A DNA stretch of 36,411 nt from an uncultured Coriobacteriaceae bacterium. GTDB taxonomy: Bacteria; Actinomycetota; Coriobacteriia; Coriobacteriales; Atopobiaceae. Every line of letters begins with the position of its first letter. The first letter of the stretch is position 1. The stretch is taken from contig CACXDP010000181.1 of NCBI GenBank assembly GCA_902766445.1, positions 1-36,411 of the forward strand. Direction: 5' to 3'. The notes under the pieces were generated by a model that did no database searches, had not been told where the DNA came from, and saw only the letters and a list, made by a program, of their open reading frames with translations. Positions 9,386 to 25,425 of the stretch are shown one piece after another. The position numbers and the translations under genes are program-made.

Positions 9386-9412
9386 ATTACAGCACTTTAG
9401 CTGGTGAGTGCT

Positions 9413-9460
9413 AAGCCCCGCTTGCGGTCCGTACAGGGACTCCAAGTGGGGCTTGTTGTT
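9413..9460 (+). terminator. Terminator after nnr
   Basis: A 12-bp stem (AAGCCCCGCTTG 9413-9424 with CAAGTGGGGCTT 9443-9454, one G-U pair) has a smaller inner GTCC/GGAC pairing and is followed by GTTGTTTAT. A separate 6-bp hairpin AGCACT/AGTGCT (9391-9412) lies just upstream. Confidence 0.75.
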
Positions 9461-9607
9461 TATCGCTTCCTGCGACTTGCCCGCTCTACCTTATCCAGAG
9501 TGGTCGAATGCGCTAGTACCGAAATGACGTCTTGGTGAGACGAACTCTCGGGAAACGCGTACAACTATCATCGGTCAGAGATTGGCAACGCGAAAGGAAT
9601 GAACTCC

Positions 9608-9976
9608 ATGCGAACCATCGGCAACATCATCTGGATCTTGTGCGGCGGTATCTTGACTGCAATCTTTTGGGCGCTGGCGGGGATTCTGTTCTATATCACC
9701 ATTGTTGGCATCCCTCTAGGTCGCCAGGCATTCAAGATGGCGAATCTCACGCTTGCTCCGTTTGGAAAAACCATCATCTATGGCGGCGGAGCCCCGTCGC
9801 TTCTGGCAAATATCGTCTGGGTCATCGTCATCGGCTTCTGGGAGGCCATAGCCTATGTCTTAGCTGGCGCTGTATTCTGCATCACGGTGGTGGGCATACC
9901 CTTCGGCCTTCAGCTTTTCAAGATGGCGAAGCTTTCGCTCATGCCCTTCGGCGCGCGTGTGCTCGACACCGTGTAA
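9608..9976 (+). CDS. yccF: YccF-domain inner membrane protein
   Basis: The 122-aa protein is two tandem copies of the YccF domain. Each has a hydrophobic span followed by a VGIPxGxQxFKMAxLxLxPFG block (VGIPLGRQAFKMANLTLAPF, then VGIPFGLQLFKMAKLSLMPF). The family consists of small membrane proteins of unknown function, found in many bacteria; about three to four hydrophobic stretches are visible here. I chose ATG 9608 because AAAGGA (9593-9598) sits 9 nt before it. The ATG at 9599 directly abuts that site. It stands alone, with the nnr terminator before it and a gene-free stretch after it. Confidence 0.9.
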   Translation: MRTIGNIIWILCGGILTAIFWALAGILFYITIVGIPLGRQAFKMANLTLAPFGKTIIYGGGAPSLLANIVWVIVIGFWEAIAYVLAGAVFCITVVGIPFGLQLFKMAKLSLMPFGARVLDTV

Positions 9977-10555
9977 CGGATTGAGGCTGCTCTAGCCGAA
10001 TGTGTCAATCCAGACCTTCAAACTCACTGCGGAACGTGTCCGGCATATGCTGAGGCTGTGTCGGTGCGGGTGTCGGTAGACTTGACCCTCCAAACGAGGA
10101 ATTTGACAAGCGCTGGCGCCAGAAACTGAATGTTGGGTCCGTGTCACCTTAGCCGATGGTACGCAATGGCACCCTCGTGGTCTGGATGATCACCCAACAA
10201 TCGACCGATGTGGAGCGTCCCTGAGCATTAGTGTACATTTAAAGCTGAAAAATTCACAAAACCCCAGTTGATGGAAATTTTTCAGAATCAAATGCGCACT
10301 GTGTAAAATACACAGTGCGCATTTGAACCTGAAAATAGTCTGTTATCTGGGGTTTTGTCGTCTCCACAAAACCAAATGTACACTATTTGCAAACCTGCCA
10401 TGTTCGATCAGGTCGTTTCTCGCGCCTGCGCCACGACTCATGCAAAGGTAGTCGAAGGAATTGCCCGCTAGAGACAAGCAAAATAACGATAAGTAAATAC
10501 CCATTCACAAGTACAGTTGATTTACGGTGAGGACTAGGGTGCAGCAGTCGCAGTT
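9977..10555. other. Gene-free intergenic region (579 bp)
   Basis: No reading frame here has a start site, codon use or similarity that I would defend. The middle holds the 153-bp inverted-repeat element described separately. The stretches on either side (9977-10228 and 10386-10555) look like non-coding or decayed sequence. The right-hand part is more AT-rich than the surrounding genes. I see no convincing terminator for the tsa fusion gene that ends at 10556 on the other strand. Confidence 0.6.
10231..10383. mobile_element. 153-bp MITE-like element with terminal inverted repeats and TA flanks
   Basis: The ends GTGTACATTT (10231-10240) and AAATGTACAC (10374-10383) are perfect inverted repeats, and a TA dinucleotide flanks each side (10229-10230 and 10384-10385). 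TA duplication is typical of IS630/Tc1-mariner insertions. Inside are a perfect 18-bp hairpin with a 3-nt loop (10288-10305 with 10309-10326), a 7-bp pair (10279-10285 with 10329-10335) and a 12-bp pair (ACAAAACCCCAG 10256-10267 with 10347-10358). Each arm can also fold on itself: 10245-10254 with 10276-10285, and 10351-10358 with 10366-10373. No transposase fits inside, so it would be non-autonomous. It is more AT-rich than its surroundings. Confidence 0.6.
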
Positions 10556-13084
10556 CTACCAAATTTGTGCCACGGGAGCTACGTCGCAGGTCCAAGCGTC
10601 AAGCTTTGCGTTGGGTGCCGCGTCGAGCGAGAGGTCAGCCAAGAGTCCTGCGCGGTAACTGCGCAGTGCTGCCAGAGCAATCATCGCACCGTTGTCGCCG
10701 CAAGCTTTCATCGGAGGCACCGTTACTCGGACACCACGCTTGCCAAACTCACGCAGATATGCCTCGCGTAGCTGCGGGTTTGCTGCCACGCCGCCGCCTA
10801 CGCAGAAGTCCGCGACGCCGCACTCCTCGACGGCTTTCAAAGCCTTGGCCACCTGTACGTCTATGACTGCCGCTTCGAAGCTCGCGGCCAAGTCGGGCAG
10901 GTTGATGGCGCGTCCAGCTTTGTTCTCCGACTGGATATAGGTGATAACAGCCGTCTTGAGGCCGCTGAGCGAGAACCGGTAATCGCCGCTATGCATCATC
11001 GCGCGTGGGAAATGAATTGCGCGACGGTTGCCTTTGGTAGCTAGCTTGCTAATCACGGGCCCTCCGGGATATCCCAGACCCAGCGCTTTGGCAACCTTGT
11101 CAAACGCCTCGCCGACCGCGTCGTCGATGGTCGCGCCGAGCAACTCATAGTCACCCCATGCACGCACATGGACGAGCATGGTATTGCCCCCACTTACGAG
11201 GCTTGCCACGAAAGGCGGTTCGAGGTCCGGCGTCGCAAAAAGGTTTGCCAGAAGGTGACCCTCCAGGTGGTTGACCGCAATGAGCGGCAACTCCGTCGAT
11301 GCGCACAACCCTTTTGCAAAGGCCACGCCCACGACGAGTGCCCCGACGAGTCCCGGGCCTGCGGTGACTCCTACGGCAGTCAGGTCGTTTGGTGCGAGCG
11401 TGTCAACTCCAAGTGTCGCTCCCGCCTGAGCTAGCGTCTCCTCAAACACGCCGACGATAGCCTCGGTATGCTTTCGACTCGCAATCTCGGGCACCACACC
11501 GCCAAAGCGCGCATGGAAGTCAATCTGGGTGGCAACCACGTTTGCGATTACGCGCCCCTCGCCATCAATCACTGACATGGCTGTCTCGTCGCAGGAGGAC
11601 TCGATGCCGAGCACGAGTGGTTCCGCAGCCTCAATGCGCGCACAAGCATCCTCGTCACGAGGGGCACACACGATGGGCCACGGTCGCACGGAAGTTTGCG
11701 GCTCCGGGATTACGGATGCGTGAGCACTTGAGGTTGCGTCTGCTGCGTCGCTGACGGAGCCTTCAGTTGGTACCGCGTGCGACCCATCCTTTTCGTAGCC
11801 GGTCACCAGCGGAAGTTCCGCCGTCATGATGAGCGCGTCGTTGCCTTTGCCGTAGTACTCGCGCCTTCGGCCGACCTGCTCGAAACCCAACGACGTGTAG
11901 AGCGCCTGACCTGCGACGTTTCCTTCTGCCACCTCAAGCGTGATGTTCTGCGCACCAAGCACGTGCCCATCGTAGGCGATACGGCGCACGAGACGTCGCG
12001 CAATGCCCTCACGCTGACGGGCAGGCGCGACCGCGACGTCGAGCACCTCGAGCGTGTCGCCGGCTCGCATACCACCGGCGAAACCGATGATCTCGCCCCT
12101 GTCATGCGCAATCCACCACGTACGACCCGGCTGTGCAAGCTCGTCCTCAAAGAGCGAATAGGACCAGGGGTTGTGTACACCTCCCGCAAATGCCTCCTGC
12201 TCAAGCGCCACTACCTGTTCCAGATCATTGACTGACATCGGGCGAAGCTGGAGGTGCAAGTCTGCCAACTCGTCGGCTACACCCGTCATCATGACGCTAG
12301 CCGGTTGGGACAGACCCAACCGTTTGCGTTCGTTTTCCTCAGCATCGGAGAGCCGCGTATAGACCGGGAGCACCAGCGCCGGATCTCCTAGCTCAGAGGC
12401 GTCGCGCGTAAGAGATTGGCGTCCCTTTTGGTCGACCCAAGCATACATCAGGGCCTCGCCGGTGGGATACCATAGGCGCTCTTCCACGACGTCTTTGAGG
12501 CCAGCCTCTTCGAAACGAACGCGATACTTAAACAAGCCGTTGCCCGTAAGTATGAGCTCGCCTGCGTCATCGCATGCCGTCCATTCCGCAACGCATTCGT
12601 CAGCGGCCTGAACCGTCTCGCTCGCAAACGTCCTGTGAGCGCCCCACTCGTCAAGCACGTAAACGCCTGGATAGACTTCACTGCGCATGGCGTCCATTGC
12701 CACGGCAAGCTTTCCTCGTATCCCAGACATCCAAGCTGTCCACGCGGTCGCATCGAGTGTCGAGCAGCCCAAGAGCGGCTTTCCAAGTCCGCAAGAAAGT
12801 CCCTTGGCAGTGGCGATGCCGATGCGCACACCAGTGAACGAGCCTGGGCCGCGACCGACGAGTACGGCATCCACGTCAGGCATAGAGAGACCAGCCATGG
12901 AAAGCACCTCGCGCGCGATGATGACAAGCTCTTCGTTGGCATGGCGCCGGCATGGGTAGTCACGACTTGCCAGCAACTCCACCGCTCCGACGACGGGCGT
13001 GCCACCCTCCTCGGCCACACGCCCCACGGCGCAGCAAAGCATGTCTGAAGAGGTGTCGATTGCAAGTATGGTTCGCTTATTCAT
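10556..13084 (-). CDS. tsaB-rimI-tsaD: TsaB-RimI-TsaD fusion: tRNA t6A37 threonylcarbamoyltransferase with protein N-acetyltransferase domain
   Basis: One 842-aa chain carries three enzymes. Residues 1-245 are TsaB (starts ILAIDTSSDMLCC, has GRGPGSFTGVRIG), the scaffold partner. Residues ~278-425 are a RimI-type GNAT acetyltransferase (LRPMSVNDL, acetyl-CoA loop QREGIAR, ALYTSLGFE). A ~60-residue Ala/Ser/acidic linker follows. Residues ~489-832 are TsaD (GIESSCDETA, metal ligands H606 and H610 in NHLEGH, D797 in CGDNGA). TsaD with TsaB and TsaE transfers threonylcarbamoyl to A37 of ANN-decoding tRNAs. I chose the ATG at 13084 because GGAGGGA precedes it by about 8 nt. An upstream in-frame ATG at 13135 has no such site. 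It is divergent from alr-UDG-tsaE. Confidence 0.96.
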   Translation of the reverse strand: MNKRTILAIDTSSDMLCCAVGRVAEEGGTPVVGAVELLASRDYPCRRHANEELVIIAREVLSMAGLSMPDVDAVLVGRGPGSFTGVRIGIATAKGLSCGLGKPLLGCSTLDATAWTAWMSGIRGKLAVAMDAMRSEVYPGVYVLDEWGAHRTFASETVQAADECVAEWTACDDAGELILTGNGLFKYRVRFEEAGLKDVVEERLWYPTGEALMYAWVDQKGRQSLTRDASELGDPALVLPVYTRLSDAEENERKRLGLSQPASVMMTGVADELADLHLQLRPMSVNDLEQVVALEQEAFAGGVHNPWSYSLFEDELAQPGRTWWIAHDRGEIIGFAGGMRAGDTLEVLDVAVAPARQREGIARRLVRRIAYDGHVLGAQNITLEVAEGNVAGQALYTSLGFEQVGRRREYYGKGNDALIMTAELPLVTGYEKDGSHAVPTEGSVSDAADATSSAHASVIPEPQTSVRPWPIVCAPRDEDACARIEAAEPLVLGIESSCDETAMSVIDGEGRVIANVVATQIDFHARFGGVVPEIASRKHTEAIVGVFEETLAQAGATLGVDTLAPNDLTAVGVTAGPGLVGALVVGVAFAKGLCASTELPLIAVNHLEGHLLANLFATPDLEPPFVASLVSGGNTMLVHVRAWGDYELLGATIDDAVGEAFDKVAKALGLGYPGGPVISKLATKGNRRAIHFPRAMMHSGDYRFSLSGLKTAVITYIQSENKAGRAINLPDLAASFEAAVIDVQVAKALKAVEECGVADFCVGGGVAANPQLREAYLREFGKRGVRVTVPPMKACGDNGAMIALAALRSYRAGLLADLSLDAAPNAKLDAWTCDVAPVAQIW

Positions 13085-13268
13085 GCAGGGTCTCCCTCCG
13101 TTATATAACGCAGAGAAGTGTAGCACGCGACGCAAGGCTGCCGTCGCGGAAACACAGCCTCGACGGAGCGATCCGGAATCCGCTGACGCATGAAAGGGAC
13201 AACACCCTTATGCGCCGGAAAGCAGCGTTGCAGCCGGGACGCAGAAGGGGTAATCAATCGTGTATCTG

Positions 13269-13297
13269 TTGCGAGTCCATCTAGGTTTGACTATGCT
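13269..13297 (+). promoter_or_regulatory. Candidate promoter of alr-UDG-tsaE
   Basis: TTGCGA (13269-13274) and TATGCT (13292-13297) at exactly 17-nt spacing lie 48 nt before the chosen alr start. This placement argues against the upstream in-frame ATG at 13190 as the real start. Confidence 0.5.
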
Positions 13298-13345
13298 TTA
13301 GAAGGCGCGCCGACGGCGTGTCAAGACGAGCAGGAGGGAGACGCG

Positions 13346-14509
13346 ATGGCACAGCGAGCAATAGGCCCGGAGGACCGCTGGGCGTGGGTTGAGATTGATC
13401 TCGACGCCATACGTCGCAACACAGCGGCACTGCGTCGCATGATGGCGCGCAATGTGCAGATGATGTGCGTGGTAAAGGCTGACGCCTACGGTCACGGCGC
13501 GGTGCAGTGCGCGAAGGCCATGCGACGCTCCGGTGGTGACCAGTTCGCCGTTGCCACCGTCACGGAAGGCGTGGAGCTGCGCAAGGCGGGCATTGCCGAG
13601 CCCATCCTGATCCTGTCGCAGCCGCCCATCGAGACGGTTCAGCGCATTGTGGACTATGACCTCATGCCCGCGCTCTATGAGCAAGACTTTGCCCTTGCTC
13701 TGGGCGAGTGCGCGGCCGCGGCCGGCAAGGTCGCCCGCTATCACTTGGCTATCGATACGGGCATGACTCGCATTGGCGTCAACTGGCGCGACGTAGTGGA
13801 GATGCGCCGATCGATTCATTTCCACCGGGGTATCGAGTGTGCTGGCACGTTCACGCACTTCGCAACTGCCGACATGCCACGTGACTGGGACTTCCAGATG
13901 CAGGCGCGCCGATTTGGCGAAGCGGTACAGGCGCTTGAGGACGCCGGTCTTAGGACGGGCCTTGTTCACTGTGCGAACACGCCGGCAACGATCATGCATC
14001 CAGAAGTCCATGAGGACATGTGTCGAGTCGGAATCGGTCTCTATGGTCTGCACCCCTCTTACGAGACGCGGCGCGAGGTGCACCTCGAGCCGGCTATGAG
14101 CGTACGTGGTCGCGTCACACGTGTCGAGTTGCCCGAGGTGGGCACAGGCGTGAGCTACGGCATGACCTATCGCGTGCCCAAGCCAAACATCCAGATATGC
14201 ACGGTTCCCATCGGTTATGCGGACGGTCTGTCGCGAACCCTTTCGGGCCAGATGGACGTCCTCGTGCGCGGTGAGCGCTGCCGTCAAGTGGGGCGCATCT
14301 GCATGGACCAGTTCATGTTTGAGGTGAGCGTCAACAACGTGCGAGCCTATCGGCCTACGACCGCCGTGGAGTACGGCGACGTGGTCACCGTACTGGGTCA
14401 TGACGGCGACGAGTTCATCTCGGCCGATGACATGGCCACTAAGCGCGACACCATCAACTACGAGGTTGTCTGCGACTTCGGCCTTCGCCTGGAGAAGGTC
14501 TACGTCTGA
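13346..14509 (+). CDS. alr: Alanine racemase
   Basis: Alr interconverts L- and D-alanine using pyridoxal phosphate and supplies D-Ala for peptidoglycan. From ATG 13346 the protein is 387 aa, normal for the family. The PLP lysine is K44 in VVKADAYGHG. The second catalytic base is Y271 in GVSYGMTYRV. The C-terminal domain has GRICMDQF. The start is chosen from AGGAGGG (13332-13338). The frame is open 52 codons further up to 13190, but that part has no family similarity and spans the candidate promoter. It is the first gene of a run with a uracil-DNA glycosylase and tsaE, divergent from the tsa fusion gene. Confidence 0.97.
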   Translation: MAQRAIGPEDRWAWVEIDLDAIRRNTAALRRMMARNVQMMCVVKADAYGHGAVQCAKAMRRSGGDQFAVATVTEGVELRKAGIAEPILILSQPPIETVQRIVDYDLMPALYEQDFALALGECAAAAGKVARYHLAIDTGMTRIGVNWRDVVEMRRSIHFHRGIECAGTFTHFATADMPRDWDFQMQARRFGEAVQALEDAGLRTGLVHCANTPATIMHPEVHEDMCRVGIGLYGLHPSYETRREVHLEPAMSVRGRVTRVELPEVGTGVSYGMTYRVPKPNIQICTVPIGYADGLSRTLSGQMDVLVRGERCRQVGRICMDQFMFEVSVNNVRAYRPTTAVEYGDVVTVLGHDGDEFISADDMATKRDTINYEVVCDFGLRLEKVYV

Positions 14510-14543
14510 CGCACGGAAACGCGCGACGACCGGAGGAAAAAAC

Positions 14544-15218
14544 GTGGCACGACAACGACGTAAGCGCACCTACCTGACTGAGGAGGATGAGACCATGCCC
14601 ATCATGCGTATCCCGGGCCACGACCATCAGAGGCCGCAGGAAGTAACCCTCGAAGAGATACGCGATTTCATGGGCAACTGCCAGCTCTGTCCGCTCGGCG
14701 AGACGCGCACGAACCTCGTCTTTGGTGTAGGCAATCCCAACGCGCGGGTCATGGTTGTGGGAGAAGGTCCCGGACGCAATGAAGACCTACAGGGCGAGCC
14801 GTTCGTCGGCGCGGCCGGACATAACCTCGACGCGCTTTTGGCGCTCGCTGGTCTGCGGCGCTCAGACGTCTACATCGCCAACGTAGTGAAATGCCGCCCG
14901 CCAAACAACCGCAATCCCAAGCCCGAGGAGATTACCGCTTGCTCTCCGTTCCTGCGCGAACAGGTGCGCTCTATCTGGCCCGACGTCATCGTATGTCTAG
15001 GCAACTTCGCCGCTCACTTCATCCTGCGCACCGAAAAAGGCATTACGAGTCTGCGTGGACGCTTCCACCAGACGGGGCACTTTGCGGTGCTCCCCACCTT
15101 CCACCCGGCGGCCGCGCTCTACCATCGCGAGTGGCAGCCCGTCCTTGAGGACGACTTCCGCTTGCTCGGCACATGGCTGGCCGAGCACCCCGCCACCCCA
15201 AACAAAGGCGGTATGTGA
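14544..15218 (+). CDS. Type-4/5-like iron-sulfur uracil-DNA glycosylase
   Basis: Removes uracil from DNA. The 224-aa product has the signature [20 protein letters not shown], the downstream block [13 protein letters not shown] and the HP motif in PTFHPAA. Four cysteines are placed as in the [4Fe-4S] family 4 enzymes: C46 and C49 (CQLC), C117 (KCRPP) and C133 (TACSPF). Two starts are credible. GTG 14544 has GGAGG at 14532-14536 (7-nt spacing). ATG 14595 has AGGAGG at 14581-14586 (8-nt spacing) and would give 207 aa, closer to the family length. I list the longer form. It lies 34 bp after alr, and its TGA overlaps the tsaE ATG (TGATG). Confidence 0.93.
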
Positions 15219-15724
15219 TGGACGCCGGCTGGCGCTGCGTGACTCGTTCCACCAAAGAGACGATTGCGCTGGGACGGCAACTCGGCGAGCTACTTGAGGC
15301 CGGAGACGTGCTCGTGCTCACGGGCGACCTTGGAGCGGGAAAGACGCAACTCACCAAAGGCATCGCAGCTGGTATGGGCGTCACCGACGACGTGTGCAGT
15401 CCGACCTTTACCATCGGAATGGTCTACGAAGGCACAAAGATGCCGCTCTATCACTATGACCTCTATCGGCTCGACAATCCCGCGCAGCTTGACGACACGG
15501 GCATCTTTGATGTGCTCGGCGACGACGGTCCGTGTGTGATTGAGTGGGGCGAGCAGTTCGCAGATCAGCTGGGAAGTGAGCGCATGGACGTGGTGCTGAG
15601 CAGGCTCGATGACGAGGCCGCGCCAGGGCAGGAACCTGCTCGTGAGGTGGCGTTCTGCGCGCGCGGAGCACGCGCCGAGGCCATTGTCGCGGCGCTGGTC
15701 GCGGCAATGGCCTCGGTCGACTGA
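15218..15724 (+). CDS. tsaE: tRNA t6A modification ATPase TsaE
   Basis: TsaE is the P-loop ATPase that drives the TsaB-TsaD threonylcarbamoyl transfer cycle. The 168-aa product has a Walker A motif GDLGAGKT at 36-43, then SPTFTI (switch-like) and HYDLYRL, followed by IEWGEQF, all typical of TsaE. ATG 15218 overlaps the UDG stop (TGATG), so it is translationally coupled. The frame is open further up, but that part lies in the UDG gene. Its partner proteins are encoded as one fusion on the opposite strand 2.1 kb away. TsaC/TsaC2, which makes the threonylcarbamoyl-AMP, is not in this window. The last ~25 residues (ARAEAIVAALVAAMASVD) are an Ala-rich helix. Confidence 0.95.
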   Translation: MDAGWRCVTRSTKETIALGRQLGELLEAGDVLVLTGDLGAGKTQLTKGIAAGMGVTDDVCSPTFTIGMVYEGTKMPLYHYDLYRLDNPAQLDDTGIFDVLGDDGPCVIEWGEQFADQLGSERMDVVLSRLDDEAAPGQEPAREVAFCARGARAEAIVAALVAAMASVD

Positions 15725-15761
15725 GTCTTGTTGCAAATACCTACACGTGCAAAAACGTTCC

Positions 15762-17234
15762 TTAATTCCCTGCGAGGTCCTTCTCAAGTAGTTCCTGCCA
15801 GTAGCCTGTGTCTTGGTAGGACCCATTGACGTAATACGTCATCTCCATGTCCTTCCAGTTCAGTTGCAGACTGGTGCGGTAAAGGCTTTCGGACTTGATG
15901 GAGAGGTCGGTGAACTCCTCCGGATTGAGCGTAGTGCCTACATACACGCTGCCCACGTATTGGATGCCTTCCTTGTCCTTGGCCACAAAGTCTACCGAGC
16001 TTATCAGAGGTGCGGCCGATCCGTTGTTGACGATGCGTGCCTCGATGCCCTCCTTGCTTTTCTCGACTTCCTCTACTTCGACTTCCTTGGCAGCGACGGT
16101 GCCGGGGAAGGGCTCCATTGCCTCCAACGTGTAAGTGGCTTTGTCCGCGCGACTGTTTATGCGGCACATCAGCGGCTGGGACGCGCCTGGCTCGATGACG
16201 CGTTTCATTGCCATGCCTTCCTCGACCTTGCTGCCCGATGTGCTGAATGTGCTGAAGTTTGCCGAGAATTCCAGCGTAGAATTGCTGTCGTTTTTTACGA
16301 TGATAACTGCAGCTCCCATTGCAGAGTTCCAGCCCTCTACGTCACCCTCGAGTGTCCCCGGTGCCGTGACGGATACCTCGGGCAAGGCAACGCTCTGGCA
16401 CCAGCAGGCATAGTAGGTTGTGGGGAAGAACAGGTCCTCGGTCGTGCCGGGTGCTTTGCCGGCCGGTTCGTAGTCATTTTCGCTCGGGTCGGATGCCACC
16501 CACCCGACGAAGGCGTAGCCTTTTCTGGTGAACCCACACTTCGGCAGTTTGATGTTTCCGGACAGGTCAGTATGAATGGGTTCTGTCTGGCCCTTGTCGG
16601 CTCCATTGCCATCGAAGGTGGCGACTGTGCGCCAAACCGCATAATACGTGTAGGCTGCATCGTCCATAGCAATCTGTGTGCCAGGCTCGATTGGCTCGTC
16701 TTTCAGCTTTTGCTGCGGGTATTCATCAGCCCAGCCGATGAACGCATATCCCTCACGCTCGACCGTGCATTCGGGGAGGGTGATGTTGCCCTCCGAGTCT
16801 GGGGCGATGCGCGTCTCGCCAGATTCCTGGGAGTCATCGTCGAGCAAATAGTTAAGGCTGACGGTGGGGCCGGTATACGAGGAATCGACCTCGGTGGATG
16901 CGGACTCCTCAGATGCTGGTTCTGCGGTTGGGACCGCTTCCTTTGACGTCGCTTTTGTGCTCGGCCGAATGAGGACGAATGCTACGAGTATTGCGACCGC
17001 GACGGCAGCCGCGATAATGATGGGGCGGCGGGACTTGTTGGTGGCTGCTGCGGCCTGACTATCCTGTGGCGTAGCCTGTTCATCGGAGATTGGCTGCGAC
17101 GGTACGGATGGCTTCTTGTCCTCAGCTTGAGCAGGTTCTTGAGCTTCTTCGGCAAGTTCACGCACGTTTGTTCCGCAATTGGGACAGAAGGGTGCGTCAT
17201 CTGTAATACTCGATCCGCAATTTGGACAAAACAT
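15762..17234 (-). CDS. Zinc-ribbon membrane protein with two InlB/Flg_new-type repeats
   Basis: 490 aa. The N-terminus is a zinc ribbon with two CPNCG knuckles (C3, C6, C17, C20). A Pro/Gln/Ala-rich linker follows, then one membrane span at about 71-89 (PIIIAAAVAVAILVAFVLI). The rest is probably outside: an acidic Ser/Glu linker, two repeats of the Listeria-Bacteroides (Flg_new) type at about 125-202 and 203-279, each with LPEC/LPKC, GYAFIGW/GYAFVGW and YYAxW, then a beta-rich C-terminal domain. Such repeats are common in surface proteins of gut bacteria and often mediate contacts; the role here is unknown. GGAGGC precedes the ATG. It is divergent from the radical SAM gene, 304 bp away, and converges on tsaE with 37 bp between. 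Confidence 0.85.
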   Translation of the reverse strand: MFCPNCGSSITDDAPFCPNCGTNVRELAEEAQEPAQAEDKKPSVPSQPISDEQATPQDSQAAAATNKSRRPIIIAAAVAVAILVAFVLIRPSTKATSKEAVPTAEPASEESASTEVDSSYTGPTVSLNYLLDDDSQESGETRIAPDSEGNITLPECTVEREGYAFIGWADEYPQQKLKDEPIEPGTQIAMDDAAYTYYAVWRTVATFDGNGADKGQTEPIHTDLSGNIKLPKCGFTRKGYAFVGWVASDPSENDYEPAGKAPGTTEDLFFPTTYYACWCQSVALPEVSVTAPGTLEGDVEGWNSAMGAAVIIVKNDSNSTLEFSANFSTFSTSGSKVEEGMAMKRVIEPGASQPLMCRINSRADKATYTLEAMEPFPGTVAAKEVEVEEVEKSKEGIEARIVNNGSAAPLISSVDFVAKDKEGIQYVGSVYVGTTLNPEEFTDLSIKSESLYRTSLQLNWKDMEMTYYVNGSYQDTGYWQELLEKDLAGN

Positions 17235-17538
17235 CAGTCAGCCTCCATGTTCGAGATTCTACAATGCCAAAAAACTTACAAAAAAATATAACAAATGCTG
17301 TGCGATGGGGCTGTTTCCTGACATGCTTGCCTGAGGAAGTGTCAGAACTGCGACTTGAAGTACTTGACCGCACTTGAGCCAAAGCTCCATATAGGGTAGT
17401 CATTTCGGACGAATCCAATCGGCAACCACAGAGGGCAGCCCTCTATGATTTTGTCCCTTCCACTACTGTCGTGATACGATAGCGGTTAGCAATCACAAGG
17501 AGTTTTTCACCAATTGCACGCGGGGAAGAGAGCAACGT
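17235..17538. other. Divergent intergenic region between zinc-ribbon gene and radical SAM gene
   Basis: No gene seen. Near the minus-strand gene is an A-rich tract (17269-17295); a possible -10 TAGAAT for that gene is at 17256-17261 on the minus strand. A small hairpin GAGGGC/GCCCTC lies at 17431-17443. The candidate promoter of the radical SAM gene is at 17451-17480. Confidence 0.5.
17451..17480 (+). promoter_or_regulatory. Candidate promoter of the radical SAM gene pair
   Basis: TTGTCC (17451-17456) and TACGAT (17475-17480) at 18-nt spacing, 58 nt before the ATG at 17539. Confidence 0.45.
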
Positions 17539-18969
17539 ATGGGTATCCCTTGGCGCGTAAGGAAATATGCTCGGCAGAACTTCAACGAGGTGTTTCACTG
17601 CACCTTGAACCCAGATGGACCGGGCGTGGTACGCATTCACCTGGTTCCTCCGGCGATGGGAAGCCATGATGCTGAGGTCGGCTCGAGCGTTGCCATAATA
17701 AACGGCCAGGACATCATCCCCGTGAATACCTCGTGGAGCATTCTCCTCATCGAGTTCATCCGTGCGGTCAACTTGTACGATGGGCGTGCCGTCACAGATC
17801 AGGATGTAGAGGAGATCCAGCGACAGACCTGCAAAGCCGTACGAAAGGTGTATCCCCTCATCAGCAAACGGCGCCTCAAGGAAGACATCTACACCATCAT
17901 GAGGACGTTCACACAAGTGGCACGAGGCGAGCGTGTGGACGAGCCAATCATGTACGTCCGTCTTGGCGACTACGCGCCGTACATGCGCGCTCCGCATCGT
18001 ATGGATCTCATGGTGAGCGCCATGACGAAGGAGGGTCGATGGCACTGCAATCAGAGGTGCGTGCACTGCTATGCCGCTGGTCAGGAGCAGGCGGAAGAGG
18101 CCGAGCTCACTACCGATGACTGGAAACTCATCATCGACAAATGCCGTGCTGTCGGCATCACACAGGTTACGTTCACCGGCGGTGAACCTACCATGCGCGA
18201 CGATTTGTTTGAACTGATTGACCATGCGCGCTGGTTCGTTACGCGGCTGAACACGAATGGAATTCGTCTCACGCCCGACTACTGCGAAGAACTGCACAAA
18301 GCGTCGCTCGACAGCGTGCAGGTCACGCTCTACTCATATGACGAGACCGTTCACAACGAGCTTGTTGGAGCTGTTCATTATGCGGACACTGTTGCTGGAA
18401 TCCAGAACGCGCTGGCTGTGGGGCTGAATCTGAGCGTCAACACGCCTCTATGCACTAGCAATCGTGAATATGCGAGGACACTGGAATTTCTGCACGGTTT
18501 GGGCGTCACCTACGTGACGTGCTCGGGTCTCATCACAACGGGCAATGCGTCCAAGCAGGAATCCGAACTGCTACAGCTTAGCATGGAAGAAATGCAGCAG
18601 ATTCTGCGCGAGGCCGTCTCGTTCTGCCATGAGCACGACATGGAGATAAGCTTCACGTCGCCCGGATGGGTAGAGCCAGGCTTTTGTATGGGTCTTGGCA
18701 TACCCGATCCGGCATGTGGTGCATGCCTTAGCAATATGGCTGTGACGCCTGGTGGGCGTGTCGTACCATGCCAAAGCTGGCTTACCGGTTGCGTCCTCGG
18801 TGACTTGCGTAACGATGCATGGGATGACATATGGCATGGTGAGCGTTGCGCGGCGATACGCTCTGCCTCGGCGCGCATGGACGGGAGCTGTCCGCTTAGG
18901 AAACGGGCCGGGAATCCAAAGCACGGCATAACCAACGCGTCTGACGTAAGCGAGGAGGGGCGCCAGTGA
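17539..18969 (+). CDS. Radical SAM enzyme with SPASM-like C-terminus (putative peptide/protein modifier)
   Basis: 476 aa. The radical SAM cluster motif is CNQRCVHCY (C170, C174, C177), followed by TFTGGEP (212-217), the SAM-binding GGEP element. The C-terminal part has cysteines at 383, 393, 396, 411, 418, 437 and 451 in the context CGAC, TPGGRVVPCQSW, LGDL and SCPL. This is like SPASM domains that bind auxiliary [4Fe-4S] clusters in enzymes that modify peptides. Residues 1-160 are unusual: a segment around 60-110 (VNTSWSILL to VRKVYPLIS) loosely resembles a PqqD-type peptide-recognition fold, which I cannot confirm. No signal peptide, so cytosolic. GGGGAAG precedes the ATG by about 10 nt. 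Its stop overlaps the GTG of the Cys-tail protein, so that protein is the obvious candidate substrate. Confidence 0.9.
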   Translation: MGIPWRVRKYARQNFNEVFHCTLNPDGPGVVRIHLVPPAMGSHDAEVGSSVAIINGQDIIPVNTSWSILLIEFIRAVNLYDGRAVTDQDVEEIQRQTCKAVRKVYPLISKRRLKEDIYTIMRTFTQVARGERVDEPIMYVRLGDYAPYMRAPHRMDLMVSAMTKEGRWHCNQRCVHCYAAGQEQAEEAELTTDDWKLIIDKCRAVGITQVTFTGGEPTMRDDLFELIDHARWFVTRLNTNGIRLTPDYCEELHKASLDSVQVTLYSYDETVHNELVGAVHYADTVAGIQNALAVGLNLSVNTPLCTSNREYARTLEFLHGLGVTYVTCSGLITTGNASKQESELLQLSMEEMQQILREAVSFCHEHDMEISFTSPGWVEPGFCMGLGIPDPACGACLSNMAVTPGGRVVPCQSWLTGCVLGDLRNDAWDDIWHGERCAAIRSASARMDGSCPLRKRAGNPKHGITNASDVSEEGRQ

Positions 18970-20276
18970 AAAAGAAGCTTGCGGCAGTATTCTGTGTGCT
19001 CGTGCTGCTCTTGTCCGTACCGCTTGCCACTGCTTGGGCGACATCGAATGACTTGGACGAAATCGTCGACTATCGCATTCGGGTTATCGTAAACTCAGAT
19101 GCGACGTTATCCATGGACTACCACGTCGAGTGGAAGGTGCTTGACTCCACAACAGAGGGTCCGCTTACGTGGGTACGCATCGGGATTCCAAACGAGCATT
19201 GCAGCAACATACGGAGCACAAGTGACTCGGTTGAGGACATTCGATACGATTCTTCGGATGGCGACTACGTGCGCATAGACCTAGATAGAGCTTACGAAGC
19301 TGGCGAGGTGGTGAGCTTCGATTTCAGCCTGATACAGGACTACATGTACGAGATGGGTAAATACGATGAGGAAGAAGAAGTGGTCTATGAGTTCATCCCG
19401 GGCTGGTTCGAAAACGCCAAGGTAGACAACCTGGAGGTGAGGTGGAACGATTACGAGGTCGCACGCGTCACTCCACCTACGACCTTGGATGATCACTACT
19501 ATGTTTGGAATCGAACTATGGACAAAGGCGAGCGTTTTAGGATAGGGGTGTATTATCCTAGCGATGCGTTCGCGTTTGATAGCACCAGATTCAAATCGGC
19601 TTCGTCAGAAACTAGTCCTGTGGAAGGTCTGATAAGCTTCCTTGTCGTTATAGGGTGCGGTATAGCATTCTTCTGGTTCCTTGAGAACAATGACAACCCA
19701 GCAGGTTGCTCCAAGTTCTTTATGTTCCTCGGTCTTTGTCCCATGCTCATTTTGATTGGGCCAATTGGGTGGCTGATACTATATTTTTTCTTTCTCAGGA
19801 AGAGCAACGCGGATTACGCAAACGGCTCGGGCTTCGTGGCCGGCAAAATGATCGAGCGCACCAAGGTCACGTACTGTCGTTTCTGCCCAAACTGCGGAAG
19901 GGCTAGGGCTGACGGTGAGACCGTCTGCAGCACGTGCGGTTGGAGACTCATCAAGAGTGAGATTCCTGTTGCAGAGGAAGATGTCCCCGAGGAGCTGAGA
20001 GACAAAGCGGAGAATGGTGAGTACGTTTACGGCAACGACCCCAACACCGTTCTACGGGTACGCGTCATGCCCCCACTACGCGTGCGGAGCCGCGGTCGTA
20101 CTGGAGGTTCGTGCGCCTGCGCATGTGGATGCGCCTGTGCGTGCGCCTGTGCGGGCGGCGGAAGGGCGGGATGCACCACGAAGGACTTCTACAACACGAA
20201 CCTCAAACTGAAGCAGCTCGCTCTGGAGCCAACACGTGCTGAAGTTTGTCAATTTGTCAGCAAAACGAAACCCTGA
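18966..20276 (+). CDS. Secreted/membrane protein with zinc ribbon and alternating Cys-X tail; candidate radical SAM substrate
   Basis: 436 aa, GTG start overlapping the previous stop (GTGA). Order: signal peptide (1-25, KKK then a long hydrophobic core); a beta-rich domain (~30-205) loosely like DUF2207 extracellular regions; membrane span ~221-239; a second, long hydrophobic stretch ~251-277; a zinc ribbon with C304, C307, C310, C321 and C324; an acidic linker; then an Arg-rich stretch (364-378). Next comes a tail with Cys at 383, 385, 387, 389, 391, 393 and 395, separated by single Ala or Gly, then GGGRAGC (C403) and TTKDFYNTN. Such a regular C-A repeat is not expected by chance and suggests metal binding or enzymatic cross-linking. 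Topology of the tail is unclear. I recognise no named function. Confidence 0.85.
   Translation: MKKKLAAVFCVLVLLLSVPLATAWATSNDLDEIVDYRIRVIVNSDATLSMDYHVEWKVLDSTTEGPLTWVRIGIPNEHCSNIRSTSDSVEDIRYDSSDGDYVRIDLDRAYEAGEVVSFDFSLIQDYMYEMGKYDEEEEVVYEFIPGWFENAKVDNLEVRWNDYEVARVTPPTTLDDHYYVWNRTMDKGERFRIGVYYPSDAFAFDSTRFKSASSETSPVEGLISFLVVIGCGIAFFWFLENNDNPAGCSKFFMFLGLCPMLILIGPIGWLILYFFFLRKSNADYANGSGFVAGKMIERTKVTYCRFCPNCGRARADGETVCSTCGWRLIKSEIPVAEEDVPEELRDKAENGEYVYGNDPNTVLRVRVMPPLRVRSRGRTGGSCACACGCACACACAGGGRAGCTTKDFYNTNLKLKQLALEPTRAEVCQFVSKTKP
20112..20174 (+). repeat. DNA encoding the (Cys-Ala/Gly)7 tail
   Basis: A low-complexity run of TGC/TGT alternating with GCN or GGN codons, with both Cys codons mixed and several Ala codons used. 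The mixed codons argue that the protein sequence, not a simple DNA repeat, is being kept. Confidence 0.7.
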
Positions 20277-20367
20277 CTTAACGGTATGACCATCACTTGC
20301 AAGTGGTGACAGTGGCAAAATAAACGGGTTGTTTGTATCGATTGATTGTGGCGGTCGAGGAGGACCT

Positions 20368-22296
20368 ATGCAGGATGGATTCGTGAAGGTCGCGGTGCGG
20401 ACGCCGCGTGTGCGGGTGGCTGATGTCGGATACAACGTCGAGATGTGCGTCGAGGCGATGCGCGAGGAGGCGGCGGCAGGAGCGAAGGTCATCGTGCTGC
20501 CCGAGCTGTGCGTGACGGGCTATACTTGCGAGGACCTCTTTTGGCAAGACACCCTGCTCGATGCGGCATGCAACGGTGTCCTTGAGCTTGCCGCGGCGAC
20601 AGCCGACATCGATGCGCTTGTCTTTGCGGGGGCACCGTTGCGCGTGGGTACCAAGCTTTACAACTGTGCAGTTGCACTCAGTGCGGGAGACGTGCTCGGC
20701 ATCGTGCCCAAGCGCTTTGTCCCGAACTTCAACGAATCGTACGAGGCTAGGCACTTCTCGACGGGGCCCCAGATTTGCGAAGTCGTCGAGTTTGCGCCGG
20801 GACACTTTGCGACATTTGGTGCTAACCAGCTCTTTGCCTGCGAGAGCGTGCCCGAGCTCGTGGTCGCCGCGGAGATATGCGAAGACCTGTGGGCACCGCA
20901 GCCGCAAAGCATCTCTCATGCGTTGGCTGGAGCAACCCTCGTCGTGAACCTCTCGGCGACGAATGCTGCCGTGGGCAAGGCCTCCTATTGTCGCAACCTC
21001 GTGGTAGGCCAGTCGGCACGCCTCGTCTGTGCCTACGCGTATGCGAGTGCTGGCTGGGGCGAATCCACCACAGACGCAGTCTTTGCGGGGCAAGGCCTCA
21101 TCGCGGAGAACGGGTGTCTGCTTGCGGAGTCGGCACCCTTTGGTCCGGGATTGGCAATGACCGAGATTGATGTGGCGTCGTTGGTTGCCGAGCGTCGGCG
21201 CATGTCCACGTTCGACGTTGCCTTGGTGCCTGAGGCGGTAGGACACATGGTGTCGCGCTTCGAGCTCGAAGTTACCGCGACAGAGCTCACGCGCCCGGTC
21301 GACCCTCATCCCTTCGTGCCCGGAGAGGAGGCCGAGCGCGCCGACCGCTGCGAGGAGGTCTTTGACATCCAGGCATATGGCCTTGCAAAGAGAATCCAGC
21401 ACACGCATGGCACCTGCGCGGTCATTGGCATCTCGGGCGGCCTGGATTCCACACTTGCCCTGCTCGTCAGCGTGCGCGCGTTTGACCTGCTTGGTCTCGA
21501 CCGCCACGGCATCATCGCCGTCACGATGCCAGGCTTCGGCACGACGAGCCGTACGAAAGGTAACGCCACAACGCTCGCTGAGGCTCTCGGCGTGCAGCTT
21601 CGTGAGGTGAGTATCGCGGCCTCGGTGCGCCAGCACTTTGCCGACATCGGACACGACGAGAACGTCCACGATGTAACCTACGAGAACGCCCAAGCGCGCG
21701 AGCGCACGCAGATCATCATGGATATCGCCAACCAGGAGGGTGGCCTCGTGGTGGGCACGGGCGATCTCAGCGAACTGGCACTCGGCTGGGCCACCTACAA
21801 CGGTGACCACATGAGCATGTATTGCGTGAACGGTGGCGTGCCAAAGACGCTCATTCGGCATCTGGTGCGCTACGTGGCCGATACCTGCGGCAACGACGTG
21901 GAGGCGCGCGTGCTCCACGACGTGCTTGACACGCCCGTCTCGCCCGAGCTTCTTCCTGCCAATGAGGATGGCACCATCGCGCAGCAGACCGAGGACTTGG
22001 TAGGACCTTACGAACTGCATGACTTCGTGCTGTATCAAGTGCTTCGCCATGGCATGAGGCCGCGCAAGCTGTATCGGCTCGCGCGCACAGCCTTTGCGGA
22101 CGCCTATGACGATGCGACGATACTCAAGTGGTTGCGAACCTTCTACCGGCGTTTCTTTGCCCAACAGTTCAAGCGCAGCTGCCTGCCCGACGGACCGAAG
22201 GTCGGTTCGGTCGGCGTCAGCCCGCGCGGTGACCTTCGCATGCCCAGCGATGCCTTGGCGACGCTGTGGCTAGCCGAGCTCGATCAGCTGGGGTAG
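20368..22296 (+). CDS. nadE: Glutamine-dependent NAD+ synthetase
   Basis: NadE turns deamido-NAD into NAD using ATP and ammonia taken from glutamine. The 642-aa product has an N-terminal nitrilase-like glutaminase domain with triad E46 (LPELCVTGY), K115 (IVPKRFVPNF) and C171 (AAEICEDLW). The C-terminal synthetase has the PP-loop SGGLDS (356-361), GTGDLSELALGW and YCVNGGVPKTLI. Length and layout match the long glutamine-dependent type. ATG 20368 is chosen for GAGGAGGA just upstream (a slightly short 4-nt spacing after GGAGG). A TTG at 20329 in the same frame is less likely. A small CACTTGCAAGTG hairpin at 20294-20305 lies between this gene and the preceding one. Confidence 0.97.
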   Translation: MQDGFVKVAVRTPRVRVADVGYNVEMCVEAMREEAAAGAKVIVLPELCVTGYTCEDLFWQDTLLDAACNGVLELAAATADIDALVFAGAPLRVGTKLYNCAVALSAGDVLGIVPKRFVPNFNESYEARHFSTGPQICEVVEFAPGHFATFGANQLFACESVPELVVAAEICEDLWAPQPQSISHALAGATLVVNLSATNAAVGKASYCRNLVVGQSARLVCAYAYASAGWGESTTDAVFAGQGLIAENGCLLAESAPFGPGLAMTEIDVASLVAERRRMSTFDVALVPEAVGHMVSRFELEVTATELTRPVDPHPFVPGEEAERADRCEEVFDIQAYGLAKRIQHTHGTCAVIGISGGLDSTLALLVSVRAFDLLGLDRHGIIAVTMPGFGTTSRTKGNATTLAEALGVQLREVSIAASVRQHFADIGHDENVHDVTYENAQARERTQIIMDIANQEGGLVVGTGDLSELALGWATYNGDHMSMYCVNGGVPKTLIRHLVRYVADTCGNDVEARVLHDVLDTPVSPELLPANEDGTIAQQTEDLVGPYELHDFVLYQVLRHGMRPRKLYRLARTAFADAYDDATILKWLRTFYRRFFAQQFKRSCLPDGPKVGSVGVSPRGDLRMPSDALATLWLAELDQLG

Positions 22297-22316
22297 GTAA
22301 GACGCTTCGCCTAAAG

Positions 22317-22339
22317 GAGGCGGGAGTCATTCCCGCCTC
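22317..22339 (+). terminator. Hairpin after nadE
   Basis: A perfect 9-bp GC-rich stem (GAGGCGGGA 22317-22325 with TCCCGCCTC 22331-22339) and a 5-nt loop, 21 nt after the nadE stop. No T-run follows, so termination strength is uncertain. Confidence 0.5.
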
Positions 22340-22464
22340 ATCGCCCCGCGGCCGTGAGCCGTGAGCCGTCGTTCGTGGCGTTTCTTTAAGCTGGATATCA
22401 TGAGGGGCTTGTTGGCAGACGATATGCGTATACTAATCACGTCTGTGTCTATACCCGAGGTCCC

Positions 22465-23337
22465 ATGGTGAGCAAACATCCAATCGCACCCAACCCCAGG
22501 TCGCTCACTGCCGAGGAGGCAGAGGAGCTCTTTGCCAAGGTTGACAATTCCGGTCATGCCGACGAGGACTCTGCCGAGCGACAACGCAAACGCCGCAAGG
22601 AAAAAGGCCATGGCGTTGACGTTGACCCCCTCTCGACGGACGACCCTTCAGGATCGAACGTCGGCCAGATCATCAAGCGGTATGCAGCCGGCATCGTGGT
22701 CGTCTTCGTGGGGGCCATCGTATTCTTGCAGCTGTATGTGGGGATCAGGCGAGCCGGAAACACAGCAAACCTCTCGGGCAACGTGAACGTCTACACCGTG
22801 GCCGAGGCTATGGACGGCGGCATCGAGTGGGGCAACGGCTTCACGCAATTCCCGCAGGACTTCTCGGTGCAGGAGGCCGACGAAAACACCGGTCGCATTG
22901 AAGTCTCGGTCATCGATACGACGTCTCCTACCGCGCTTGCCTGTCTTTCGGGCTCTCAGGTCCAGGCGACGGCGTTCGCGGTCAATTCGCTTCTCAACCC
23001 AAAGATAAGCACCGTCATCTATCACGTGAGTGTGTACTTGGACGAGAATGGGCAGATAGAGCACCTGTCTCCGTTTGGCTTCTTTAGGCCGAGTGGCGAC
23101 CTGACCCCGTTCATCACCTACGTGTGGACGAAGTCGACGACGGGTGACGGGCAGGTGCGCTTCTCCTGCGCGATTGCGGGCGTCGACGACGAACTGCAGG
23201 AGGTATTGCGAGACCAGATAACCTCGCGTGCGACACCGCTCTTTGGGGGTGGCGACGACGAAGAAGAAGAGCCAAGGTCTGACGAGGCGGAAACGACCTC
23301 TCTCGAACAAAGGGGTGCCGCGTCGTCAAGGAAGTGA
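22465..23337 (+). CDS. Single-pass membrane protein of unknown function upstream of glgX
   Basis: 290 aa, not recognised. The N-terminal ~70 residues are charged, with a basic run (ERQRKRRKEKG, 38-48), and probably cytosolic. One membrane span lies at about 74-94 (AAGIVVVFVGAIVFLQLYV). The remaining ~190 residues would be outside and look globular (VNVYTVAEAMDGGIEWGNG, then an IEVSVIDTTSP strand and a YHVSVYLDENG strand). The last ~35 residues are acidic and low-complexity (GGGDDEEEEPRSDE). The Shine-Dalgarno site is weak (GAGG). A -10-like TATACT sits at 22429-22434 without a good -35. It ends 9 nt before glgX, so the two are probably co-transcribed, but no link to glycogen is visible in the protein itself. 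Confidence 0.85.
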   Translation: MVSKHPIAPNPRSLTAEEAEELFAKVDNSGHADEDSAERQRKRRKEKGHGVDVDPLSTDDPSGSNVGQIIKRYAAGIVVVFVGAIVFLQLYVGIRRAGNTANLSGNVNVYTVAEAMDGGIEWGNGFTQFPQDFSVQEADENTGRIEVSVIDTTSPTALACLSGSQVQATAFAVNSLLNPKISTVIYHVSVYLDENGQIEHLSPFGFFRPSGDLTPFITYVWTKSTTGDGQVRFSCAIAGVDDELQEVLRDQITSRATPLFGGGDDEEEEPRSDEAETTSLEQRGAASSRK

Positions 23338-23346
23338 GATACCAGC

Positions 23347-25425
23347 ATGAATGCCATGGACAACTATCCCACCCACGAGCTTGACGGAATCAAATATCGA
23401 TGCGGCCATGTGAGCCCCTTCGGCGCGACCATACTGTATGGCAACGCCGTGAACTTCTCCGTGTTTTCGAAACATGCGACGTGGTGCGAATTGCTGCTGT
23501 ACCATCAGGGGGCAAAGGAACCCTTCGCGGTGCTTCCGTTCCCAGACGAATTCAGAATCGGTAACGTCTTTTCGATGATAGTCTATGACCTCGACTACGA
23601 GGAGCTCGAGTATGGCTATCGCTTCGACGGGCCGATTGATCCGCAGGGTGGGCATCGCTTCGACCGCCGGAAGGTCCTGCTCGATCCCTACGCAAAGCTG
23701 GTCGCAGGCAGGGATCTATGGGGTGAGCGATCAGATCCGGACGAAACGTTTGTCCACCGCGGTAAGGTGATTCCCGAGGACTTCGATTGGGGAGACGACA
23801 GACCTTTGGAGATTCCCCTGAAGGACCTCGTTATCTATGAGGCCCACGTACGCGGTCTCACCATGGGTTCGGGCAGTGGTACCAAGTACATGGGTACCTT
23901 TGCGGGTCTTACCAGCAAGATTCCCTATCTCAAGGAGTTGGGCGTCAACTGCATCGAGTTGCTGCCGATCTTTGAGTTCGACGAGTTCGAGAATAGCCGA
24001 GTCGTGGGGGAGGAGAGGCTCTACAACTATTGGGGCTACTCCACGGTGGCCTTCTTTGCACCGAAGTCGGGCTATGCTGCGTCGAGTTCCGTCAGCCTTG
24101 TGGCGGAGGAGCTAAAGAACACGATTAAACAGTTCCACCGCAACGGCATTGAGGTCATGCTCGACGTGGTGTTCAATCACACGGCTGAGGGAAACGAGAG
24201 GGGACCGTACATCTCGTTCAGGGGCATTGACAACAAGACCTACTACCTGCTCACACCCGATGGTCAGTACTACAACTTCAGTGGCTGCGGCAATACCATG
24301 AACTGCAACAACGCCGTGGTCAGGAGCTTCATCCTGGACTGTCTGCGCTACTGGGTGAGCGTGTACCACATAGACGGCTTCCGCTTTGACTTGGCCTCCA
24401 TACTCTCGCGAGATGCGAACGGCGCGCCTATGAGCAGCCCGCCGTTGCTTGAGGCCTTGGCCCAAGACCCCGTTCTCGGTAGGACCAAACTCGTGGCTGA
24501 GGCGTGGGATGCGGGTGGACTCTATCAGGTGGGAAGCTTCCCGGCCTGGGGTCGCTGGGCTGCGTGGACCGGCAAGTACCGCGACTGCCTGCGCCGCTTC
24601 ATCAAGAGCGAGGCGGAGTGCGGCCCCGAGATGCTCATGAGGATCCAGGGATCGCCCGACCTCTATGCAAACAGGAACGCCGAGGCAAGTATCAACTTCG
24701 TCACCTGCCACGACGGGTTCACGCTCTACGACATGGTCTCGTACAACGAGAAGCACAACGAGGCGAACGGAGAGGCGAACCGCGACGGTGCCAACGACAA
24801 CAACAGTTGGAACTGCGGCGCGGAGGGCGAGGTCGACGACCCCGAGATCCGCGAGCTTCGCATTCGCCAGATAAAGAATGCCGCGACCTTGCTGCTGCTC
24901 AGCCGTGGGGTGCCCATGCTGCTGGCTGGCGACGAGTTCTGCAACTCGCAGGGAGGCAACAACAACGCATACTGCCAGGACAGCCCCATCTCGTGGCTCA
25001 ACTGGGGTGATCTCAAGAGGAACCGGCCTGTCTTTGAGTATTTCAAGACGCTGATTGCGTTTCGACACGCGCACCCGGTTCTGCGCACGAAGCAGTTCTA
25101 TACGGGTGTGAACTCGAGCGGTTACCCCGAGCTCTCCTTCCATGGCCAGAGCGCCTGGAAGCTTGACGCGATGAAGCCCTTCCATACCTTCGGGTTCATG
25201 TATGCCGAGACCGTGGCGGATCATGGGGTGGAGAAGGACTGCTTCATCTACTGCGGTGTCAACACCTATTGGGAGGAGCGGACGCTGGAGCTGCCGATAA
25301 TCCCTGCCAACACGAGATGGCATGTGGTGGCGTATTCGGCAGGGGACGCTAACGAAGTGGGGAATGTCGCAGGTGGTGAGCTAACGATAGCGCCGAGAAG
25401 CAGCGTCCTCGTGCTCGGTTCTTAA
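23347..25425 (+). CDS. glgX: Glycogen debranching enzyme GlgX (GH13 isoamylase type)
   Basis: Hydrolyses alpha-1,6 branches of phosphorylase-trimmed glycogen, releasing short maltodextrins. The 692-aa product has an N-terminal CBM48-like domain (GNAVNFSVFSKHATWCELLLY) and a GH13 barrel. The barrel has DVVFNHTAEG, nucleophile D348 in GFRFDLAS, acid/base E385 in VAEAWDAGG and D456 in TCHDGFTL. NEANGEANRDG and LLAGDEF are typical of GlgX/TreX enzymes. ATG 23347 lies about 13 nt after AAGGAAG. A second ATG at 23356 is possible. It follows the unknown membrane protein by 9 nt and is convergent with pdxY. Its products would feed GlgP and the MalQ-type fusion further down. Confidence 0.96.
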   Translation: MNAMDNYPTHELDGIKYRCGHVSPFGATILYGNAVNFSVFSKHATWCELLLYHQGAKEPFAVLPFPDEFRIGNVFSMIVYDLDYEELEYGYRFDGPIDPQGGHRFDRRKVLLDPYAKLVAGRDLWGERSDPDETFVHRGKVIPEDFDWGDDRPLEIPLKDLVIYEAHVRGLTMGSGSGTKYMGTFAGLTSKIPYLKELGVNCIELLPIFEFDEFENSRVVGEERLYNYWGYSTVAFFAPKSGYAASSSVSLVAEELKNTIKQFHRNGIEVMLDVVFNHTAEGNERGPYISFRGIDNKTYYLLTPDGQYYNFSGCGNTMNCNNAVVRSFILDCLRYWVSVYHIDGFRFDLASILSRDANGAPMSSPPLLEALAQDPVLGRTKLVAEAWDAGGLYQVGSFPAWGRWAAWTGKYRDCLRRFIKSEAECGPEMLMRIQGSPDLYANRNAEASINFVTCHDGFTLYDMVSYNEKHNEANGEANRDGANDNNSWNCGAEGEVDDPEIRELRIRQIKNAATLLLLSRGVPMLLAGDEFCNSQGGNNNAYCQDSPISWLNWGDLKRNRPVFEYFKTLIAFRHAHPVLRTKQFYTGVNSSGYPELSFHGQSAWKLDAMKPFHTFGFMYAETVADHGVEKDCFIYCGVNTYWEERTLELPIIPANTRWHVVAYSAGDANEVGNVAGGELTIAPRSSVLVLGS

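Follow-up and report, generated by a model that had tools for sequence, protein, structure and literature searches.

A radical SAM enzyme and a membrane protein with a Cys-Ala tail are encoded side by side in a large, widespread two-gene system of gut bacteria. We observed this pairing, its conservation and the domain layout directly; the two proteins probably form a dedicated enzyme-substrate pair, in which the enzyme would cross-link or otherwise modify the anchored tail, most likely through thioethers. The system was detected in a 36,411-nucleotide stretch of DNA from an uncultured Coriobacteriaceae bacterium (contig CACXDP010000181.1), here called the window (Table 1). Its parts are of known kinds, a radical SAM/SPASM maturase and a Cys-rich substrate; their combination here, in which the candidate substrate is anchored in the membrane and bears an invariant tail, is nameless in the libraries searched, and no specific Pfam or NCBIfam family model reaches its threshold for either protein. 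The radical SAM/SPASM maturases are known mainly for acting on small peptides; if our reading is true, the substrate here is a fixed tail on a protein anchored in the membrane.

Enzyme and tail are linked in both directions

A scan for the tail pattern CACACAGGGRAGC over bacteria and archaea, each species represented by a single genome, returned at least 118 loci. The 80 titles listed were mostly those of Lachnospiraceae, Oscillospiraceae and other Clostridia, with some Acholeplasmatales, Anaeroplasma, other Bacilli and Eggerthellaceae; the named isolates among the listed loci included Gemmiger formicilis ATCC 27749 and Hungatella hathewayi WAL-18680. An enzyme homologue was encoded within the locus DNA at 94 of the 118 tail loci listed (41-75% identity over the aligned part), and a genome-wide search for the other 24 recovered the enzyme in 20, with the tail adjoining except at contig ends. 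Three of the four remaining carriers run off the end of their contig. The fourth (L043), the sole true lack of the enzyme among the 118 listed loci, is a carrier remnant whose start is missing, beside unrelated sequence. Where both genes were complete, the enzyme came first and on the same strand in 60 of 64 pairings, mostly with a spacing between an 8-base overlap and a 10-base gap. Three loci (L022, L080 and L105) carry two tailed carriers by one enzyme gene, the second carrier of L022 being on the opposite strand.

For the reverse search, enzyme homologues were sought blind to the tail in 807 genomes from four groups. All 34 homologues (each with E below 1e-170) adjoined a tailed carrier. 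Within a set of 150 genomes, by the look of its loci a single family, Lachnospiraceae, the strict tail pattern occurred in ten genomes, all of them among the 13 with the enzyme (Fisher p 2e-13), and the other three enzyme genomes carried CACACACASSGRAGC, the CASSGRAGC variant. Enzyme and ectodomain distances moreover co-varied (Mantel r 0.83, with 0 of 2000 permutations as high).

The first-pass annotation of this DNA had proposed a modifying enzyme acting on the tail of a membrane protein, in a pairing that it could not assign to a family, and had named two findings that would speak against this idea: tail proteins regularly occurring with no radical SAM gene nearby, and a well-assigned, unrelated small-molecule function of the enzyme. 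Neither emerged, as only the one remnant truly lacked the enzyme among the 118 listed loci, no NCBIfam family came near its cut-off and the closest folds were peptide maturases. Given these two outcomes and the complete linkage in the reverse search, the pair reading stands, still with no name in the libraries.

Table 1. Coordinates of the enzyme-carrier pair, its sequence features and the accessory segment in the window
Feature	Coordinates	Strand	Details and basis
Segment with the pair and one further gene	15697..20367		4.67 kb, absent from congener G114; collinear blastn
Zinc-ribbon protein with Listeria-Bacteroides repeats	15762-17234	-	490 aa; same segment as the pair
Putative tail maturase, radical SAM / SPASM(twitch)-type	17539..18969	+	476 aa; Pfam, AF2 model, fold matches
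N-terminal domain, RRE-like, residues 30-128	17626..17922	+	Secondary structure of the model; covered by SkfB and SuiB alignments
Radical SAM cluster motif CX3CX2C (CNQRCVHC), residues 170-177	18046..18069	+	Translation
SPASM/twitch region, residues 393-451	18715..18891	+	Pfam match, cysteine conservation
GTGA stop/start overlap	18966..18969	+	Short same-strand overlap or gap usual in relatives
Carrier, membrane protein with Cys-Ala tail, putative substrate	18966..20276	+	436 aa, GTG start; translation, relatives, model
N-terminal signal/anchor segment of carrier	18966..19040	+	Hydrophobic segment; helix 2-22 in model
Carrier ectodomain, residues 28-205	19047..19580	+	Beta fold, ribophorin I/OST1- and M1 aminopeptidase N-domain-like
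Transmembrane region, residues 218-240 and 249-287	19617..19826	+	Hydropathy, model
Zinc-ribbon domain, residues 295-368, CxxC...CxxC	19848..20069	+	Model; Pfam zinc-ribbon matches in relatives
Cys-Ala tail, residues 383-403, CACACGCACACACAGGGRAGC, putative modified stretch	20112..20174	+	Translation, conservation among tails
Conserved TTKDFYNTNLKLKQLA after the repeat, possible recognition element	20175..20222	+	Conservation in 133 tails

The enzyme is a SPASM/twitch-type radical SAM protein

The upstream gene product matched Pfam Radical_SAM (PF04055, 5.7e-21) and, over the gathering score, SPASM (PF13186, E 6e-9). The CX3CX2C motif read by the first-pass annotation is present, followed downstream by GGEPT, and its three cysteines were invariant in 32 relatives; the GTGA junction between the two genes had also been placed correctly. 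A SPASM-like layout of seven C-terminal cysteines had been described as well. All seven exist (383, 393, 396, 411, 418, 437 and 451) and Pfam supports the SPASM assignment, but 383 and 418 are unconserved family-wide. Across the 32 relatives, C393, C411 and C451 were invariant and C396 and C437 frequent; with only three positions invariant, the conserved set falls short of the seven cysteines of a full SPASM and, judged by these positions, is of the twitch or short-SPASM type. Comparison with NCBIfam (best 25 of 65 families) brought the enzyme near no cut-off: the best family was NirJ2 (109.2 bits against a cut-off of 500), with SkfB at 55.5/300, StsB at 59/625 and HxsC at 59.4/267.9.

An AF2 model of the enzyme (pLDDT 89.7) had its closest solved fold in SkfB (PDB 6efn; Z 27.7, rmsd 4.1, 342 aligned), the sporulation killing factor sactisynthase. 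SuiB ranked second (Z 26.5, rmsd 3.4, 352 aligned), followed by anSME, viperin and CteB (Z about 24 for CteB), with EpeE at Z about 19. As the SkfB, SuiB, anSME and viperin-like folds all lie within about 3 Z units, and gaps of a unit or so are ties, the model assigns the enzyme to the SPASM/twitch group, and its likeness to SkfB, SuiB and CteB leaves the chemistry unfixed. The SkfB and SuiB alignments both start around residue 30, at the beginning of an N-terminal domain modelled as beta-beta-beta-alpha-alpha-alpha, the topology of an RRE, and bearing the family-specific motifs HTTLNPxGPGVVRIHLVPP and NGQDIIP. This domain had no sequence match to PqqD/RRE, so that its assignment as an RRE, drawn from the model, is likely but not proven.

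The carrier presents a conserved tail, most probably to the cytosol

No Pfam or NCBIfam family matched the carrier above threshold. Its model shows an exported beta domain, followed by membrane segments, a zinc ribbon and an unstructured tail. The ectodomain was most similar to ribophorin I/OST1 (6ezn_A, Z 15.4), an exported bacterial domain thus resembling eukaryotic ones, and also aligned with M1 aminopeptidase N-domains (Z about 12; LTA4H about 11.8). Weak DUF2207 (PF09972) matches were found in 17 of 44 carrier relatives (E <= 0.05, best 1.1e-4), with none in the window carrier itself. The zinc-ribbon region was modelled with a pLDDT of about 91-97 over most of its length, and a zinc ribbon was present in 33 of 61 carrier relatives.

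A simple hydropathy count gave one N-terminal and one later hydrophobic segment in 52 of 61 carriers, relatives mostly having a single segment where the transmembrane region of the window carrier lies. This arrangement would put the tail in the cytosol, where the enzyme is, and from the topology of most members we regard the tail as most probably cytosolic. The window carrier has an extra hydrophobic stretch compared with most relatives, which makes the side of its own tail less sure.

The C-terminal region of the carrier reads CACACGCACACACAGGGRAGCTTKDFY and finishes with SCACACGCACACACAGGGRAGCTTKDFYNTNLKLKQL plus a short extension. The strict Cys-X repeat that the first reading had placed at the C terminus was confirmed as a C-A/G repeat (cysteines 383, 385, 387, 389, 391, 393, 395 and 403), although it is not terminal, as about 33 residues still follow. 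X was Ala in 695 of 700 C-X units of the repeat run. Positions inside the search pattern prove little for the at least 118 loci, since the loci were chosen by them; outside the pattern, the 133 tails compared had K (+9) in 100%, D in 90%, F in 86% and Y in 89% of cases after the repeat, and Cys at -8 in 98%. The tail core CxCAGGGRAGC was encoded by 141 distinct DNA versions with third codon positions free, indicating that selection acts on the protein; judged by its codons and by the invariant K at +9, the repeat is neither chance nor slippage. Ectodomains of carriers sharing this near-invariant tail had a mean identity of 36%. In the tail-blind set, the core was unchanged but for a GGG to SSG variant, and CACACACASSGRAGC-(S/T)VK(D/E)FF at four loci (L165, L166, L167 and L195), alongside the same enzyme family, represents natural variation of the GGG.

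The pair is accessory in the window's genus

Full-length carrier relatives occurred in only 2 of 120 further genomes of the window's family, both from the same genus as each other and the window, and both with the enzyme directly upstream. In the congener G114, about 180 other bases take the place of the 4.67-kb segment holding the pair, while both flanks (7874-15696 and 20368-24396) align collinearly at 94% identity. The segment has a GC content of 54.6% versus 60%, and no flanking repeats marking an insertion element were seen at its ends. Its absence from G114 indicates that the pair is accessory in this genus, by loss or gain. The further gene in the segment encodes a protein with an N-terminal zinc ribbon and two Listeria-Bacteroides repeats, between which we noted a hydrophobic stretch by eye; no homologue of it was found as a recurrent neighbour of the pair at other loci. 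Elsewhere in the window, one ORF (10556-13135, minus strand) combines a GNAT acetyltransferase domain with TsaD, apparently as a fused RimI-TsaD.

No conserved third gene was found near the pair, as no cluster was present in more than 15 of the 118 listed loci. ABC transporters and regulatory-type proteins, named from sequence, lie near some pairs and look lineage-specific. Regulator-like proteins, several of which begin MPKKIALFSCGWAFDLLHD, were seen within a few kb of pairs at L044, L053, L070, L095, L096, L129 and other loci. Copies of the tail were found neither in viral contigs nor in plasmids, and the enzyme search of viral contigs gave only distant radical SAM proteins (22-35%).

Proposed mechanism and alternative explanations

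We consider it very likely that the Cys-Ala tail is the substrate of the enzyme. In the mechanism that we propose, the membrane-inserted carrier would expose its beta domain on the outside and its tail on the cytosolic side, where the radical SAM enzyme probably binds the tail via its RRE-like N-terminal domain, the KDFY...LKL stretch after the repeat being a possible recognition site. A 5'-deoxyadenosyl radical would then initiate modification in the run of alternating Cys and Ala and in the GGGRAGC turn, with several thioethers between Cys sulphur and neighbouring Ala or Gly carbons as the most likely product. This chemistry, suggested by analogy, seems to us the probable one. Its donor Cys residues are evident, but its acceptors would be Ala or Gly, unlike those of most known ranthipeptides. 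Since neither a protease nor an exporter accompanies the pair as a conserved neighbour, the tail probably remains attached to the carrier once modified, where it may serve as the cytosolic end, rigid or metal-binding, of a membrane receptor or adaptor; that the carrier works as a membrane sensor or adaptor with such an end is a guess by analogy. For the complete picture, namely a widespread, uncatalogued modification system in which a membrane sensor or adaptor permanently carries an enzyme-built, multiply cross-linked Cys-Ala structure on its cytosolic tail and never releases it, we see about an even chance.

The tail could instead be modified by Ala C-alpha epimerization, carbon-carbon cross-links or Cys oxidation, which we regard as unlikely but worth weighing. 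A strictly alternating repeat suits modification of every second residue, the alternating L/D strand of an epimerized tail could make a beta-helix-like structure, and both SuiB, which forms C-C links, and the epimerase EpeE are among the fold matches of the enzyme. However, the conserved alternate residue is Cys, commonly used for thioethers by this enzyme class, and the fold is nearer to the sactisynthase SkfB than to EpeE. Anaerobic sulfatase-type conversion of Cys to formylglycine was rejected: the sulfatase motif is C-x-(A/P)-x-R, and the tail Arg sits five residues past the Cys.

It is improbable that the tail is a metal, iron-sulphur or redox device that the enzyme partners or loads without covalent change. 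The roughly eight closely spaced cysteines in a hydrophobic Cys-Ala run and the zinc ribbon preceding the tail in about half of the relatives would fit such a device, but metal sites rarely need an invariant alternate Ala together with invariant GRAG and KDFY, the tail accompanies every enzyme homologue found, and peptide modification is the activity of the closest enzyme folds.

More doubtful still is the idea that the carrier is a RiPP precursor with an unusually large leader, whose modified end is cleaved and released as a peptide natural product. Although the enzyme fold is RiPP maturase-like and the end is Cys-rich and conserved, the leader would have to be a folded, anchored membrane protein, the residues after the repeat are conserved likewise, and a conserved peptidase or exporter was not seen next to the pair. 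Our best reading keeps the tail of the membrane protein as the modified target and disfavours a free peptide. Finally, although two-codon repeats can originate by slippage, a chance neighbourhood of unrelated genes with a simple-sequence repeat has next to no probability, being already contradicted by the 141 DNA versions of the tail and by the adjoining enzyme in 34/34 tail-blind cases, across Clostridia, Acholeplasma relatives and the window's order.

Novelty and comparison with known systems

Sequences of the pair are present in public genomes, and the tail keeps its exact letters from gut Clostridia through Acholeplasma relatives to the window's order. Its invariant 20 residues offer a small, well-defined test substrate for the chemistry, and the Cys-Ala repeat provides a handle for finding further radical SAM systems acting on large proteins. 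We found no description of the pair or of the tail letters in the open-licence literature, though one may exist elsewhere. In the available part of a study that mapped more than 250 radical SAM clusters (PMC9062424), the repeat-bearing substrates named were Asp-Cys, His-Xaa-Ser and TVGG, with no Cys-Ala repeat among them.

SkfB, the best fold match of the enzyme, is also its best PDB sequence match and shares with it the radical SAM core, a SPASM/twitch end with one strongly conserved cysteine set and an RRE-like N-terminal region. It differs in having only 19% identity to the enzyme, which scores far under the NCBIfam SkfB cut-off, and in acting on a free peptide, whereas the candidate substrate here is a tail borne by a membrane protein of 300-500 aa. 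The ranthipeptide maturase CteB (PDB 5wgg/5why) is similar in that its Cys-rich substrates are encoded next door. SCIFF-type peptides, however, are short and free, use other residues as acceptors and have full-SPASM maturases (PMC8326336), while the window enzyme is twitch-like, the putative acceptors are Ala/Gly and the carrier is large and anchored. Sactipeptide and ranthipeptide systems more generally combine a short free precursor with a maturase scoring over a named NCBIfam cut-off; our candidate substrate has roughly 300-500 aa in the complete relatives examined, and the enzyme lay below the cut-off of every named maturase among the best 25 of 65 families.

The HxsA/HxsB/HxsC system of Haft and Basu, built on a His-Xaa-Ser repeat and referred to in PMC9062424, likewise joins a repeat in the substrate to a radical SAM maturase; our pair differs by its Cys-Ala repeat, its single enzyme and HxsC bits below the cut-off. 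DUF2207 proteins, too, are predicted to lie in the membrane and resemble the carriers in their N-terminal domain; neither a Cys-Ala tail nor a neighbouring radical SAM gene belongs to the definition of that family. A precedent for radical SAM enzymes making thioethers in an enzyme subunit is QhpD (cited in PMC8326336 and PMC7876137), whose target is a protein subunit in quinohemoprotein amine dehydrogenase. That substrate is a different one, with neither the tail repeat nor a membrane carrier.
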